Notes: generated from the sequence alone by a model not told the origin. Shown: positions 57,459 through 64,000, numbered from the stretch's first letter. The stretch: 64,000 nucleotides of DNA from Vasconcelosia minhoensis LEGE 07310 (GCF_015207255.1 NZ_JADEXG010000002.1:62001-126000), one strand, 5' to 3'. Made by a program: numbers and translations.

Positions 57459-57767
57459 TCAGGGATGAGAGCGAAACTGAGATAGCTCTACCTGCCCAGC
57501 CAGCTGTTTAAGCAGCTCACCGGTCGTTCCCAAATCGAGCTGTGCAAGCAGCAACCACTGAGCCGGTGGAATCGCAATCATCATGCCGTCATGAACGCGG
57601 CGGATTTCATCAGCCAGATAATAATCAGGCAAACCCGCTTCAATTTTGCCGACCCCATGCACACTGCGTAGAGCCGCATTGACCGACGGGCTGATACCGC
57701 ACACCACCAGACTCATCAGCGTCACCACACGCGAAAACAGCATGTCGCTAGCGTCAAATAAAGCCAT
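57459..57767 (-). CDS. Secreted 102-residue protein at the end of the chaperone-usher operon, unrecognised
   Basis: ATG 57767 has AGGAG 6 nt upstream and lies 42 nt after the usher stop codon, so it is the last gene of the operon. Residues 7-31 form a signal-peptide-like hydrophobic stretch (LFSRVVTLMSLVVCGISPSV) with possible cleavage after VNA. The mature part, about 71 residues, has DYYLADEIRRVHDGMMIAIP, PAQWLLLAQLDLGTTGELLK and an acidic/polar end. It is not a chaperone, usher or immunoglobulin-like subunit. It could be a small tip, anchor or assembly accessory protein. No family is assigned. Confidence 0.7.
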   Translation of the reverse strand: MALFDASDMLFSRVVTLMSLVVCGISPSVNAALRSVHGVGKIEAGLPDYYLADEIRRVHDGMMIAIPPAQWLLLAQLDLGTTGELLKQLAGQVELSQFRSHP

Positions 57768-57808
57768 AGGAGTCTCCTGAGTGATCCTCAACTGCCAAAG
57801 GTTAAAGA

Positions 57809-60800
57809 TCAATCGAGAAGAAAACGGGAAGGCGCGGCCTTTACGGCTACTGGCAGTCTCAGAGTCCCTACCTCATATAGACCAGAAGCCTGCTCCGGGA
57901 TGACAAACTCCGTTATCCCATTTTCTAAGCCTATCATTCGTACAGAATAAGAACCGGGTTTGAACCCAAATAGGGCAAATCGTCCAACCCGATTCGTAAA
58001 GAGTTCCACATCGGGCCAGTCTGGGTCTGAGAGCGATTCAACTACGCCTCGTTGCAGGGATACTGGATGACCTTCGACACCCACCAGTACACCGCGAATA
58101 AACACCGTCGCTTCAGTCCCAGCAGCAATGACGGTGCCGCTTCGGTAGGAGGGTAGCAGGGTATAACTGCTGGCACCCAGGTCGTAGCCAACGGGTAAAT
58201 CTGGAGCATCTAGAGACAGCGTAGTCAATGTATAAGGTTGAATTGGCAGCACCGCTGGTCCGCTCCCGTTAGCTCTTCCCTGGTCACCCGTTTGACTGGG
58301 ATTGACCCGAACAAGCCGACCTTCAGCCGTGCCCTGGCGGGTAACAATGGCAAAGCTGTTGTCAATGGGCCGAGACCAGCCGAAGATGCCATCGGCAAAG
58401 ACTAGAGCCGTTCCCCAGGTCAGGCGGGAGCTTGTTTCCCGTGAATGACCCGGGGTAATCCTATGATCCAAATTCAATAAGGCTCGGTAGCCTTGATATC
58501 GGGTCTGGTTAGTGACACCTATATCATTGGCATTGAGCGAAAGGCTTAGAGTGTTGCTGATGCTGTTGAGAGCGCGGGGAGAGCTGTAGTTCCAGTTCAT
58601 CCGACTGGTGGTTCTCCCGGATGGGTCCAAGGTAGTGGTGCTGGTGATCCTTTGCCGTTGTCCTGGCAGAGATGAGGTTAAGCCTACACTAATTCGCTGG
58701 ATCGGCTCGCCATCGGTATCTACCCCATAGCTGCCATTGAGGGAAAGGTTGAAGCCCTGTCTCAACGGCTGAGTGATAGATAGCCCAAGGTCGTAGGCAT
58801 TCGCTGTATTATTGCGAGTCATTTGATAACGGCTACTGAGAGTCGCCCGCATATTGCCAAAAATCAGCTGGCTATAGGACGCCGTCAAATCCAGACTGTT
58901 AGGATTAGATGGGTCTTCTTCGCCAAGGGAGACAAAGTCTTCACCTCGGTATTCCAGACCGATTCTCAGAGATTTCTGATTATCGCCGGAAACTCCTCCC
59001 TGCAGAAGATCATAGAAGACTCGCATCGCAAAATCATTGCCAAAGCTAGAATCGCGGCTGAACGCTGCATCCCAGGTCCAGTTCCCAAAAGATGTGGCCC
59101 AGGTTCCTTCAACACCCAGCAGCTGCCGTTCTAAATTTCCTTGAAAATATCCCCCAAGAGTCAGCTGGTCGGTAATTCCAATCCGATGGGATAGCGTGAG
59201 CACCGTTTTACTAGCGTCGTATTGGCGCTCGAACCCTGACTGTTCTGAAGGCAAGCCCAGGCTATAGGCAAACTGCTGGACTCCTGAAGCTAGCAGATCG
59301 CTGGAGACACCGGTAGCAAAGTCGAGTCGCTGTACCTGGCCGACAGAATCGGTAATGACGAGCTGTACTCCGTTAATGCCCGCGTTCAACGGCAGGTTTC
59401 GCACATCCTGTGGACCAGCCTCAAGCTGCAGGGTCTGCACCAGTCGGCCATTAACAAAGACCTCGACGGTGGCCTCACGTTCCAGGAAAAACTCAAATCG
59501 GCTAATGGGTCGAGTGACTCGGAAAGGCTGTAAAGAAAAGTTGCGCGCGACAGTAATGCCACCCATCGGGATACTACTCTGATAGCCGCGAGTGGGCACC
59601 GACAGATCGCCGATTCGATATCGGACGGCTTGGGAAATATCATCATGCACCAGGCTGAAGTTGCCTAGCTGCCAGGCAGAGCTGTTCCCTTCGGTAAAAT
59701 CGACCTGGCCCTCTAAAACCCAACCGCCAATGTTAAGGGCACCGTCGAAGTTCAGCAGCACCGGCTGCCGACCTGTTTCACTGGCATCGCCAGACCAGAC
59801 CACTGCTTGGCCGCCGCGGACATTGACGTAGGCACTGGTCCGGCTAGGTCGCAGTGCGGTGTCATAGCCCATAGGCAGGTCGCGGCTATTCACGTCTAAT
59901 ACATGAGTCGCCCTGAGGGCGGCAGGTACCTGCATCTGCAGTTCCAGCCGACGCTCATCAACATTGACTTCCAAGCCCATCTGACGAATATCGCGGAGGT
60001 TGATTTGGCCGGTTTCGTCTACAGCCGCTGATAGCTGAGCTTGAATATCAGGCCGCACCAGGTTCGCAGTAGCTTCAAGCAGATCGCTGCCGTCGATCAA
60101 AATGTCTGCTTGATTGCCCCCTGGCAGTTGCAAAAAGACCTGTCCCCGTTGCTGCTGATCGATGAATAGAGGCACCACAACCGGTTGGGGGGTGAGATTG
60201 CGAGGGCGACCAAAAACGTCCTCAAACACTTGATCGGTCTCTGGGCTGTTAGCCGACTCAGCTGTAGGGAAGTGCTCGGGGGAAGCGTCCGTCGCCGGGT
60301 CGATCGCGCTAGCAGCAGGATACTCGTCTGAAGCTGGAGCGGGGCTGGCAGGCTCCTCCTCAGGAGCATCGGTTGCCTGGCTAGGAGGAGACTGGGCAGA
60401 GGCCAACGAGGGCGATTGATAGAGTTGGGGTGCAGGCATGGTTGGTTGCGGCGTCCATACCCCGCTCCTGGCCTGTAAATCAGCGGCTTGAGTACTGTCG
60501 GCTGAGGCAGGCGAAAACGCAGGAGCAGCTGGAGCAGTCACTCGGGGAGACTCCGCCATTGAAAAGCCGGGGGCTGACTCGATTGGTTCTGGCTCGGGAG
60601 CCGTATGAGCGATCTCATGAGTCTCCTCTATCGGTATGCGCTCTGCCTGAACGGGCGCTGGAGCCATCACTCGGGACCCCTCTGCCGTTGACAATCGGGG
60701 AGTTGGCTTGATTGGTTCTGGCTCGGGAGCTACATCAGCGACCTCACAAATGTCCCCCATTGTCCTGCGCTTCGCCTGAACGGGCGATAAATCATCTGGC

Positions 60801-60859
60801 AGCAGATTTGGCGGTGCTGCCACCGCGCAGCCATGCGCTGTTAAAACAATGGGTAACAT
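57809..60859 (-). CDS. Fimbrial usher with a long low-complexity N-terminal extension
   Basis: 1016 residues; GGAGGG 6-7 nt before ATG. It is the outer-membrane pore and assembly platform of a chaperone-usher pilus. Residues 1-18 are a short, atypical export signal (MLPIVLTAHGCAVAAPP). Residues about 20-215 are Pro/Ala/Glu/Ser-rich and hold two 43-residue repeats. An N-terminal periplasmic domain (QMGLEVNVDERRLELQMQVP, about 285-310) precedes the 24-strand-type barrel with the usher block FEFFLEREATVEVFVNGRLV, VQTLQLEAGPQDVRNLPLNAG. C-terminal domains end in VGRFALFGFKPGSYSVRMIG. It matches the sigma (archaic-like) usher clade. Confidence 0.9.
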   Translation of the reverse strand: MLPIVLTAHGCAVAAPPNLLPDDLSPVQAKRRTMGDICEVADVAPEPEPIKPTPRLSTAEGSRVMAPAPVQAERIPIEETHEIAHTAPEPEPIESAPGFSMAESPRVTAPAAPAFSPASADSTQAADLQARSGVWTPQPTMPAPQLYQSPSLASAQSPPSQATDAPEEEPASPAPASDEYPAASAIDPATDASPEHFPTAESANSPETDQVFEDVFGRPRNLTPQPVVVPLFIDQQQRGQVFLQLPGGNQADILIDGSDLLEATANLVRPDIQAQLSAAVDETGQINLRDIRQMGLEVNVDERRLELQMQVPAALRATHVLDVNSRDLPMGYDTALRPSRTSAYVNVRGGQAVVWSGDASETGRQPVLLNFDGALNIGGWVLEGQVDFTEGNSSAWQLGNFSLVHDDISQAVRYRIGDLSVPTRGYQSSIPMGGITVARNFSLQPFRVTRPISRFEFFLEREATVEVFVNGRLVQTLQLEAGPQDVRNLPLNAGINGVQLVITDSVGQVQRLDFATGVSSDLLASGVQQFAYSLGLPSEQSGFERQYDASKTVLTLSHRIGITDQLTLGGYFQGNLERQLLGVEGTWATSFGNWTWDAAFSRDSSFGNDFAMRVFYDLLQGGVSGDNQKSLRIGLEYRGEDFVSLGEEDPSNPNSLDLTASYSQLIFGNMRATLSSRYQMTRNNTANAYDLGLSITQPLRQGFNLSLNGSYGVDTDGEPIQRISVGLTSSLPGQRQRITSTTTLDPSGRTTSRMNWNYSSPRALNSISNTLSLSLNANDIGVTNQTRYQGYRALLNLDHRITPGHSRETSSRLTWGTALVFADGIFGWSRPIDNSFAIVTRQGTAEGRLVRVNPSQTGDQGRANGSGPAVLPIQPYTLTTLSLDAPDLPVGYDLGASSYTLLPSYRSGTVIAAGTEATVFIRGVLVGVEGHPVSLQRGVVESLSDPDWPDVELFTNRVGRFALFGFKPGSYSVRMIGLENGITEFVIPEQASGLYEVGTLRLPVAVKAAPSRFLLD
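60527..60784 (-). repeat. Two 43-residue imperfect repeats in the usher N-terminal extension
   Basis: Usher residues 26-68 and 69-111 align: both begin PVQA, contain APEPEPI in the middle and end with a Ser-Arg/Pro-Arg-Val-x-APA segment. The DNA similarity is strong enough to produce a repeated pair of antisense open frames. The arrangement indicates a tandem duplication of 129 bp. Confidence 0.75.
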
Positions 60860-60979
60860 ACAGTCCCTCCAACCGGCTCGAAGCGATCGGGTTGGTCAAT
60901 CCAAAAGGCCTAGGACGTGATTGAAATAGTTATATTCGTGGGCAACAGTCAATCTTCCAGTGCCAGAGCCGACGATCGC

Positions 60980-61735
60980 CTATTCGCGCGGTTGGTACTG
61001 AAATGTTGCGCTAATCGGACCGTTCGGTAGATTAGCGGGGCGCGGTATCACAAAGCGTCGTTGATGTCCTGCGAGAATCACCTGGCCGACCATTCCCTCC
61101 AACTGATCGGGTCCTAGAGTGACCGGGGTCTCCTGAGCAGTTAGAGTCACCTGCAGGTTTCGTAAATGGGTGCTGGCGGTGCCCTGGTTCGACAGCGTGA
61201 TCGCCACCTGAGCCTCTCCCCCGGCGTTAGTAATCGCCTCTACCGAATCGAGTTGGACATTTGCCGTAGCCCCTGTCGGGCGAATGTAGAAAGAGCCTAG
61301 ATAGCGCAGCAAAATTTGCACCGAACCCGTCGGCCGCGCTGCCTGCTGATCCGGCGCGACTAAGCTAATCGGCAACTGCTCAGCCACCAGGCGGTAGGCT
61401 AGCTCCTGGGACGGCTCGGGGTCACCCAGCCAGGTGACTCGAACCGTTTGCACAGTTTGAGGCTCCAAAATCATTTGGGGGGGATAAATCAAAAAGTCTT
61501 CGTCGGCCAGATTGTAAGTCTCCTGCCCGTCAATTGCCATGCTACGTTCTACTACCGAGACTTCCACCGCAATCCGTTCGTCGCTATCGTTGATCACTGT
61601 GTAGGACCGGGTCGCCTCATTGCCAATGGGGGCAAACACCTGAGAGATTGGTTTAAGCTGAAACGCTAAGGTGGGATTGACATACGCTAATGTCAGGAAA
61701 AGCGCAGCGATCGCAGTCTGAAATAATCCTTTCAT
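60980..61735 (-). CDS. Periplasmic fimbrial chaperone
   Basis: 251 residues from ATG 61735 (AGGA 8 nt upstream; ATG 61744 is also possible). A signal peptide is at residues 1-23 (LFLTLAYVNPTLAF). The two immunoglobulin-like domains of PapD-type chaperones follow. The G1-type region is LAYRLVAEQLPISLVAPDQQ, SVQILLRYLGSFYIRPTGA, and the A1 strand region is FQLKPISQVFAPIGNEATRS. The second domain is LSNQGTASTHLRNLQVTL. It caps pilus subunits by donor-strand complementation before handing them to the usher encoded next. Confidence 0.9.
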   Translation of the reverse strand: MKGLFQTAIAALFLTLAYVNPTLAFQLKPISQVFAPIGNEATRSYTVINDSDERIAVEVSVVERSMAIDGQETYNLADEDFLIYPPQMILEPQTVQTVRVTWLGDPEPSQELAYRLVAEQLPISLVAPDQQAARPTGSVQILLRYLGSFYIRPTGATANVQLDSVEAITNAGGEAQVAITLSNQGTASTHLRNLQVTLTAQETPVTLGPDQLEGMVGQVILAGHQRRFVIPRPANLPNGPISATFQYQPRE

Positions 61736-61895
61736 AGGAGCCATCCTGATTAAGTACTTGCTCAATAGAGAAGCTGCTACATCCGAAAAATAGGTCCAGC
61801 TGCTTGCCCTCTATTTCGCCTAATATTCCCAATAGCGCCTCAAGCAGCACACAGATGCTAAAAGGGGCCTTGAATTCAACATAAATACCTCAACA

Positions 61896-62003
61896 ATGAA
61901 ATTTACATAGAAGGAATTGTCATTCCGAGCAGAGCGAGGAATCTCTCAGCTACTGATGATTCTGAGCGAGATGCCTCGACGGACTCGGCATGACATCAGG
62001 CTT
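61896..62003. repeat. Intergenic palindromic repeat, plain form (copy A)
   Basis: ATGAAATTTACATA is followed by TTGTCATTCCGAGCAGAGCG, AGGAATCTC, a short spacer and GAGATGCCTCGAC...GGCATGACATCAGG. The two arms are complementary and fold into one long hairpin (TGTCATTCCGAG / CTCGGCATGACA). It lies in the spacer between the second subunit gene and the chaperone gene. Confidence 0.85.
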
Positions 62004-62054
62004 TGTTTCACTAAATTTCGCAATTAACCTTGCTTTACTACTTGTAAGCAAGTT

Positions 62055-62498
62055 TTAGTTATTATCGTCAACCCAGACATCGATCGTACTGGCGTAGTTT
62101 CCTGGATCCTGTAGAGCTGCTGGGCGGTATAGGATATAGAGATCCCGGCTATGATTTCCAGCGCCGCTCGTGGTGTAGGTGTATACTGACCCGGATGGCA
62201 CTGAAAAGTCTCCCTCTGAAGGCGCTACATCATTATCGAGGACGGTGACCACCTGAAAATCAATATCTACCCCATCAGGCTTGGTGAGCGAGCCAGAAGT
62301 TACAGAAAGCGTTAAGCCCAGGGCACTATCCGTGGAAAAGGATAGGTCGGCCACTTTAACAATATGGGTTGTCGCTGTTCCCTCTCCGTCCAGGTCCAGA
62401 GAACTGACGACAGCAGTTGGACTGGTCGCGAGTGTAGGTAGCGCTAGAGCAGGAGTGGGGATTGCAGATAGGAAGAGAATCAGAAACCCCAGTTTCAT
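62055..62498 (-). CDS. Fimbrial subunit 2 (sigma-type chaperone-usher pilin)
   Basis: 147 residues from ATG 62498; a GTG at 62516 would add six residues but sits directly on the GGGGG run. The signal peptide is MKLGFLILFLSAIPTPALAL. The mature part shares the framework of subunit 1: TATTHIVKVADLSF, SGSLTKPDGVDIDFQVVTVL, SRDLYILYRPAALQDPG and YASTIDVWVDD. It lacks cysteines. The N-terminal strand AVVSSLDLDG could serve as donor strand. The lower similarity and different acidic loops suggest a minor or tip subunit rather than a copy of the shaft pilin. Confidence 0.85.
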   Translation of the reverse strand: MKLGFLILFLSAIPTPALALPTLATSPTAVVSSLDLDGEGTATTHIVKVADLSFSTDSALGLTLSVTSGSLTKPDGVDIDFQVVTVLDNDVAPSEGDFSVPSGSVYTYTTSGAGNHSRDLYILYRPAALQDPGNYASTIDVWVDDNN

Positions 62499-62610
62499 GA
62501 GTTTGATACGAATCACCCCCTAAGTCAGGGATTTCCCATAATGATCAGGAAAGGCTATTTCGGCACAATAGTTTTTATTAATACGATTGGAGAATTAAGT
62601 ACCTGAGCAT

Positions 62611-62768
62611 TGAAATTTACATAAAAGAACTTGTCATTCCGAGCAGAGCGTAGACGCTTGCGGCTTCCCGCAGGGTGGAATCTCTCGAACGCTGATGCTT
62701 CTGGGTGAGATGCCTCGACCAGTTACGCTTTCAGCGTCGCTCCGCGAACGGCATGACATCAGGTTTTG
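62611..62768. repeat. Intergenic palindromic repeat with insertions in both arms (copy B)
   Basis: The ends match copy A (TGAAATTTACATA, TTGTCATTCCGAGCAGAGCG, GGAATCTCTC, GAGATGCCTCGAC, GGCATGACATCAGG). After GAGCAGAGCG an extra segment of about 27 nt is present (TAGACGCTTGCGGCTTCCCG...). After GCCTCGAC another segment of about 29 nt is present (CAGTTACGCTTTCAGCGTCG...). Copy B lies in the spacer between subunit 1 and subunit 2. Confidence 0.85.
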
Positions 62769-62846
62769 CTCTGCAAAAGGCATGTAATTAATTTTGATTG
62801 ACTACTTAGCATTGTAATACTTAAGCGATTCAGTCTTAGCTTAGAA

Positions 62847-62883
62847 AACAAAAGGGCGGGGGTCATTTCCCCGCCCTTTTGTT
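62847..62883 (-). terminator. Rho-independent terminator after subunit 1
   Basis: On the minus strand AACAAAAGGGCGGGG, a 7-nt loop and CCCCGCCCTTTTGTT form a perfect 15-bp stem followed by TTCT. It begins 49 nt downstream of the subunit 1 stop. Partial read-through would give much subunit 1 and less subunit 2, chaperone and usher. Confidence 0.88.
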
Positions 62884-62931
62884 CTTCAGCTATAGACACA
62901 AGTCAGATACAGGGGATCAAGGTAGGATGAC

Positions 62932-63423
62932 CTAGATGTCGGTCACAGTCACAGTGATGGTGCTGGTATAAGTGCCTGGATCTAAAAGAGCAGGGGCGTC
63001 ATACTCAATATAAAGATCTCGGGCAGCTACACCGCTAGCGAAATCAGTCACTGACTTGCTGTCGCTCGTAGCCGTGAAGTCAGTCGCGACTGGAGTCGCA
63101 GCCCCATCCGCAACAATTAGAACTTGGTAAGCTAAACTACCAGTACCATTGGTCAAACTGCCACCGGCGGCAGCGGCCAGCGTGACACCTTGACTATTAT
63201 TGGATGAGAGGGCCATATCGGCTACCTTAACTACCGTGTCAGCGGCGGCAGTGCCTTGGCCCGCCAGGCTCAGAGTAGTCGCCCCTGCTGTAGCGGTTGA
63301 GGTGACGCTGCTAGTACTCGCGACAGTGCCACTGAGGTTAACGGTATCGGCAAAGGCCGGGGCGCTGAATGCGATCGCGCCCACTAGAGCACCGGCAGTG
63401 ATTGCAAAACGACGTAATAACAT
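62932..63423 (-). CDS. Fimbrial subunit 1 (major chaperone-usher pilin candidate)
   Basis: 163 residues; AGGAG 8 nt before ATG. The signal peptide is residues 1-25 (ALVGAIAFSAPAFA, cleavage after AFA). The mature protein is Ala/Thr/Ser/Gly-rich and cysteine-free. It has an alternating N-terminal strand TVNLSGTVASTSSVTSTATA (donor-strand candidate), the shared VVKVADMALS, GSLAYQVLIV, RDLYIEYDAPALLDPGTY motifs and the C-terminal strand STITVTVTDI. It is the first gene of the operon and is followed by a strong terminator, which suits the most abundant subunit. Confidence 0.85.
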   Translation of the reverse strand: MLLRRFAITAGALVGAIAFSAPAFADTVNLSGTVASTSSVTSTATAGATTLSLAGQGTAAADTVVKVADMALSSNNSQGVTLAAAAGGSLTNGTGSLAYQVLIVADGAATPVATDFTATSDSKSVTDFASGVAARDLYIEYDAPALLDPGTYTSTITVTVTDI

Positions 63424-63440
63424 AGTAATTCTCCTAAAGG

Positions 63441-63476
63441 CTTATGGACTGGGCTTATGGACTGGGCTTATGGACT
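63441..63476. repeat. 13-bp tandem repeat in the subunit 1 leader
   Basis: CTTATGGACTGGG occurs twice, followed by a partial third copy CTTATGGACT, within the first 60 nt upstream of the subunit 1 start codon. It will be in the 5' untranslated RNA or near the promoter. Confidence 0.9.
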
Positions 63477-63814: not shown

Positions 63815-64000
63815 TCAAACCATCGTAAAGTCTGCTGCGCTCAAGTCAGCAGTCGATACGTTTAGCAGGGCTAGAACCTCGTCGTTGAAGCTAATTTCGC
63901 TGCCCGTCAGGGTTAGCTGGCCGAAGGACAGGCCGTCTGCTAAACCAATTAGGTCGATTCCTATCTCAAAATCCACAATGGTATCGGTGCCTTCGCCTGC
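63815..64000 (-). CDS. Partial C-terminus of a large protein, calcium-binding/adhesin-like
   Basis: The minus strand is open from the window edge to TGA 63815-63817. It encodes 61 residues: GEGTDTIVDFEIGIDLIGLA, then LSFGQLTLTGSEISFNDEVL and a tail with STADLSAADFTMV. The GTDTIxDFxxGxDxIGL pattern is the conserved end of RTX/hemolysin-type calcium-binding and cadherin-like cyanobacterial surface proteins. It is co-oriented with the fimbrial operon. The rest of the gene lies outside the window. Confidence 0.8.
   Translation of the reverse strand, partial: AGEGTDTIVDFEIGIDLIGLADGLSFGQLTLTGSEISFNDEVLALLNVSTADLSAADFTMV

Follow-up and report, generated by a model that had tools for sequence, protein, structure and literature searches.

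In the draft genome of the cyanobacterium Vasconcelosia minhoensis LEGE 07310 (5.26 Mb), genes for two pilin-like proteins, a chaperone and an usher form a single minus-strand run within the analysed window (C72:62001-126000, a stretch of 64,000 nucleotides from whose first letter all positions are counted). The first gene, SUB1 (62932-63423, minus), encodes a secreted single-domain pilin of 163 aa that we propose to be the major, fibre-forming subunit, and the second, SUB2 (62055-62516, minus), a secreted single-domain pilin of 153 aa with a proposed role as tip or initiator subunit. These are followed by an archaic-like periplasmic chaperone of the PapD type (60980-61765, minus), which has 261 aa when counted from TTG but for which the ATG at 61735 is the likelier start, and by an outer-membrane usher of 1016 aa (57809-60859, minus). 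The original prediction of a chaperone-usher operon in a cyanobacterium, with these four products in one orientation, agrees with both the coordinates and the family profiles: the usher matched PF00577 (E=2e-17; 63.7 bits against a Pfam cut-off of 27.1), the chaperone matched PapD_N, PF00345 (E=4e-9; 36.8 bits against a cut-off of 23), and both subunits are predicted to fold as pilins. As had also been predicted, neither SUB1 nor SUB2 contains any cysteine. Profile searches of the whole genome found no second usher, chaperone or further pilin; the sole NCBIfam match was to a PefC/AfrB-type usher, far under its cut-off, and a sequence search of the PDB gave no useful match. The operon is flanked upstream by a phosphatase/phosphodiesterase-like gene with RTX-type repeats and downstream by a cation-ATPase-like gene. 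On the upstream side and on the same strand (L002 10815-17000, from window position 63815 onward), a 1405-aa protein with two glycerophosphodiester-phosphodiesterase-like stretches and an alkaline-phosphatase-like protein are encoded, and by eye both sequences appear to end in RTX-type repeats.

SUB1 and SUB2 are homologous (37% identity) and belong to one pilin family of about 70 ORFs located upstream of related ushers, in which unrelated neighbouring ORFs do not score; neither protein matched Pfam above a cut-off. Their AlphaFold models have pLDDT values of 93.8 (SUB1) and 93.9 (SUB2). The solved fold nearest to SUB1 is CsuA/B of Csu pili (Foldseek, 6fq0, E=3e-4), and VIA structural alignment with 7zl4 gave a Z of 8.0 with an rmsd of 2.8 over 116 residues. 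For SUB2 the best Foldseek matches were the PapG pilin domain, FimG and CsuA/B; the top VIA rows also included hexosaminidase domains, so that Z alone is not decisive here. Since Z-scores of 7-8 can be reached by unrelated folds, we regard the Foldseek lists, which consist mostly of chaperone-usher pilins, as the stronger evidence. Cumulatively, the models and their Foldseek and VIA matches bear out the incomplete Ig fold of the subunits, on which the prediction had been made to depend. Kinship of the pilin family with SCPU pilins is distant: profile-profile comparison with an SCPU set gave an hhalign probability of 96%, the SCPU profile matched 4 of 50 family members weakly with no family-wide score, and nothing in the genome matched the SCPU domain PF05229 at E<=1. 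The two cysteines that are invariant in the SCPU set have no conserved counterpart in the pilin family.

In alignment with CsuC, the chaperone keeps the equivalent of the archaic Arg89 (YR[LI] on strand F1, here LAYRLVAEQ) as well as the donor tyrosine at P0 equivalent to Tyr116 (ILLRY), both of which have been described as residues of archaic chaperones (PMC4654587); the Arg89 equivalent is absent from FimC, YehC and YbgP. The domain-2 carboxylate anchor of CsuC, Tyr196/Arg174, is not kept in the sequence alignment and its positions vary across the clade. At the positions of the classical Arg8/Lys112 anchor the chaperone has Q and S, respectively, with R in place of Q in some relatives.

The first ~205 residues of the usher are a low-complexity, Pro-rich linker (60245..60859, minus) with no Pfam match, which leaves an usher proper of ~805 residues; across the aligned family the length of this linker varies from a few tens to more than 200 residues. 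Directly ahead of the usher N-terminal domain lies a conserved motif of the type LFExVFGRPR (60200..60229, minus), possibly a chaperone-binding tail by analogy with the FimD N-tail. Ushers ~40-54% identical to this one were found in other cyanobacteria, including Adonisia, Leptolyngbya, Tildeniella, Nodosilinea, Pseudanabaena, Nostoc, Symploca, Iningainema, Synechocystis salina and a Gloeobacterales MAG, and the gene order SUB1-SUB2-chaperone-usher is kept in many cyanobacteria, with SUB1-chaperone-usher in some. Their spread is patchy: 18 of 47 good genomes from the family of the window's own organism carry an usher of this clade, and an usher of either cyanobacterial type was detectable with Pfam in 20 of 386 cyanobacteria. 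In some relatives (usher loci G436, G455, L109, L097) the usher is split by frameshifts or stops, which suggests recurrent loss of the system or errors of assembly.

In phylogenetic trees the cyanobacterial ushers, including that of S. salina, form a clade with a support of 99-100. Closest to this clade are the usher of a Rhodospirillales MAG and those of alpha- and gammaproteobacteria. The EcpC outgroup branch in the first tree was too long (4.06) and the tree was rebuilt without it. Rooted on classical ushers, it separates the clade, by a branch ~1.1 in length that has full support, from CsuD and the SCPU ushers, together with the second cyanobacterial, SCPU-associated usher type and E. coli FimD, YehB and YbgQ. 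The clade was separate from CsuD in both trees, and its placement within the sigma ushers or beyond them varies with the choice of root. Because the Synechocystis usher sits inside the clade, the system belongs on sequence grounds to the cyanobacterial CccS-CccP-UshA branch, a kinship read via S. salina genes that stand in for slr1667 (CccS), slr1668 (CccP) and slr0019 (UshA) of Synechocystis PCC 6803. The S. salina usher (L094) shares 40% identity with ours, three genomes of this genus group have pilins of the SUB family (E=3e-21, 7e-19 and 2e-11), and one has a 41% identical chaperone (L057). Synechocystis differs in having one pilin and a detached usher, where V. minhoensis has two pilins and all genes in one operon; further, an SCPU domain has been reported for CccS (PMC4390875), whereas SUB1 and SUB2 show neither an SCPU score nor cysteines.

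The same data make it unlikely that the locus is an ordinary sigma, or archaic, operon of the Csu type with SCPU pilins. The chaperone does keep Arg89 and Tyr116, but not Tyr196/Arg174; the pilins are linked to the SCPU set by hhalign and have CsuA/B as nearest fold, but the genome lacks any SCPU match and the pilins both invariant cysteines; and although SCPU ushers are paraphyletic to the clade when the tree is rooted on classical ushers, the usher is separated from CsuD and the SCPU ushers by the long branch. Likewise, no CsuE-like adhesin was found (see below). Compared with the Csu pili of Acinetobacter baumannii, the usher is ~23% identical and of another clade, and the A'-A'' hairpin used for the clinch of CsuA/B (PMC9452303) has no obvious equivalent in the SUB1 sequence. 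The original assignment to a sigma, archaic-like clade is thus supported in part: the archaic-like machinery with its Arg89/Tyr116 site stands, but the usher groups neither with CsuD nor with the SCPU-type ushers of cyanobacteria, and the domain-2 anchor, SCPU score and cysteine pair are missing; the system is a variant of sigma/Csu rather than a textbook example. SCPU-type clusters of Nodularia and Thermosynechococcus are likewise cyanobacterial chaperone-usher systems (PMC5853447, PMC7005997), and the second cyanobacterial type in our set (L052, L053, L064, L067) has ushers of ~780 aa, ~22% identical to ours, and two-cysteine SCPU pilins.

The two pilins differ in the part of the molecule on which polymerization depends. 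A motif test and structural alignment identified an N-terminal donor strand in SUB1 at residues 26-35 (DTVNLSGTVA; 63319..63348, minus), where the mature N-terminus fits the donor motif phi-x-phi-x-G-x-phi with VNLSGTV. This motif occurs in 21 of 35 SUB1-type proteins and in none of 15 SUB2-type proteins, as compared with a mean of 0.36 and a maximum of 3 in shuffled sequences of the SUB1-type set; it is present in FimA, FimI, FimF and FimG and absent from the tip adhesin FimH. The stretch from the cleavage site to strand B measures 22-31 residues in SUB1-type proteins and 13 in those SUB2-type proteins whose AxA site is recognisable. Because structural alignments of SUB1 start only at model residue 10-11, corresponding to pilin residue 13-15, the donor-strand residues precede the pilin body, whereas mature residue 1 of SUB2 already aligns with pilin residue 14-15, FimH 160, PapG 196 and CsuE 180. 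A Tildeniella and Nodosilinea subgroup has SUB1 proteins without the strict motif, yet these have kept the extra N-terminal length. Two findings are new here: throughout the cyanobacterial clade an N-terminal donor strand is present in SUB1 and lacking from SUB2, and the adhesin-like gene of the proteobacterial relatives, described next, is missing.

The proteobacterial relatives of the operon have an additional gene at its end: in 29 of 31, a two-domain, adhesin-like ORF of 250-400 aa starts less than 300 nt from the usher stop, and many of its products end like pilins. Among 41 cyanobacterial loci, each with at least 1 kb of downstream sequence, a pilin-like ORF past the usher was found in one, an Aphanothece MAG, where it encodes 247 aa of the pilin family directly past the usher on the opposite strand (L074 2778-3521, minus). 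In V. minhoensis no CsuE-like two-domain tip adhesin follows the usher, and a genome-wide search with the pilin profile gave no additional pilin at E<0.1. Two extra matches, with E-values of 0.1 and 0.66, were considered as a hidden two-domain adhesin and rejected, as they cover just 34-42 N-terminal, signal-peptide-like positions.

We interpret these data, with a probability of roughly 0.75, as a chaperone-usher pilus operon of the CccS-CccP-UshA branch in which a fibre of SUB1 is started by SUB2 as a single-domain tip. By the mechanism of donor-strand exchange, a subunit that offers a groove and lacks a donor strand can only be the first in a fibre. SUB1, which has both a donor strand and an acceptor groove, could therefore polymerize, and SUB2, with a groove alone, would be confined to the distal end as the starter. 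Both subunits would be exported by Sec and receive the G1 strand of the chaperone via its archaic-type Arg89/Tyr116 site; the usher would then take up the chaperone-subunit complexes and join the subunits, SUB2 first and then many copies of SUB1, so that a single-domain tip would replace the two-domain adhesin of the proteobacterial relatives. We speculate that the usher N-tail may reach such complexes across the periplasm by means of the Pro-rich arm and the LFExVFGRPR motif. An adhesive or biofilm function would be in keeping with this class of pili.

A donorless subunit could instead simply block growth, and some members of the clade, in Nostocales, Gloeocapsopsis and Synechocystis, have one SUB-family pilin in the whole genome; since these have only SUB1, a donorless tip is not obligatory and SUB2 is dispensable in part of the clade. 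SUB2 might then be a capping, inhibitory or secreted pilin beside self-started homopolymers of SUB1. We consider this improbable, as SUB2 is always donorless and is kept beside SUB1 in most members, and as a subunit of this kind would by the known mechanism enter at the distal end alone, as does SafD, which caps Saf pili of Salmonella and provides a precedent for a donorless end subunit (PMC5700814). In the SafA/SafD system, too, the fibre is capped by a small minor subunit, which receives its donor strand from the major pilin (PMC5700814); Saf pili are of a different chaperone-usher lineage, and the comparison is one of function. Returning to SUB2 as the tip, we tentatively extend the reading, at slightly less than even odds, to a distinct lineage in which the two-domain tip adhesin, kept by the proteobacterial sisters, was lost and a donorless, single-domain tip pilin, with its gene between those for the major pilin and the chaperone, took its place; in this lineage the chaperone would anchor subunits by a different domain-2 site, and a long Pro-rich periplasmic arm would tether the usher.

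The operon is interrupted by several elements. Copies of one dispersed genomic repeat lie between SUB1 and SUB2 (62631..62762, minus) and between SUB2 and the chaperone gene (61917..61999, minus); the core of this repeat occurs 19 times in near-exact form across the genome, 17 of these outside the operon. The gaps that hold the two copies, of 415 and 289 bp, compare with 2-42 bp in the closest relatives. Just past SUB1 there is a strong hairpin followed by a T-run (62848..62882, minus; predicted -26.4 kcal/mol), and similar hairpins follow the first gene in the relatives L045, L046, L098 and L105 but are absent in others. It is possible that this hairpin is a partial terminator that favours SUB1 expression and may keep SUB1 in excess; that two repeats and a strong hairpin interrupt the operon speaks against taking expression of the downstream genes for granted. 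A perfect 13-bp tandem repeat of 2.9 copies lies just upstream of the SUB1 ribosome-binding site (63439..63476, minus), and changes in its copy number could shift expression of the fibre subunit. Upstream matches to an SYCRP1/CRP-type site were at chance level, with none in the SUB1 promoter region, and a sigma-70 promoter scan also gave chance-level results.

The further secreted protein that had been placed at the end of the operon (57459-57812) is not part of the pilus system. This ORF matches the first and last parts of an ORF of ~470 residues in relatives of the same family that encodes a DDE transposase (PF01609, E=4e-13), and its sequence has 27 matching places in one related genome. 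We conclude that it joins the two ends of a transposase frame in an internally deleted IS remnant (57462..57767, minus), and we rejected it as a secreted fimbrial protein, its apparent signal peptide being transposase sequence. That the whole operon is decaying and non-functional, broken by repeats, a terminator-like hairpin and this remnant, is very unlikely, for despite the repeat-filled gaps, the IS remnant adjoining the usher stop and the broken ushers of some relatives, none of the four frames is broken, and they keep the residues conserved in the family, at 45-65% identity to the nearest relatives.

To our knowledge, there is no agreement on the molecular identity of cyanobacterial thin pili. 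In Synechocystis, with its single pilin detached from the usher, mutant phenotypes conflict: cccS and cccP mutants are non-motile (PMC4390875), whereas an usher mutant is motile and flocculating (PMC6755745). The description of the system as little-described holds in the sense of little studied but not of undescribed: a review of 2015 covered cyanobacterial cccS-cccP-usher operons (PMC4390875), and phenotypes of the Synechocystis usher mutant have been published (PMC6755745). Complete two-pilin operons, with a clear fibre subunit and a candidate tip, make the thin-pilus question directly testable. If SUB2 is indeed the tip, the operon would encode a minimal archaic-like pilus, consisting of a fibre and a single added domain, from which one could learn how assembly is initiated.

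A literature search worded around SCPU tips of archaic pili gave no match. In the second, SCPU-type cyanobacterial operons (L053 5520-5972 and L064 6171-6662), the usher is followed by a single-domain pilin that apparently also lacks an N-terminal donor strand, and single-domain tips may perhaps be commoner in archaic systems than has been described.
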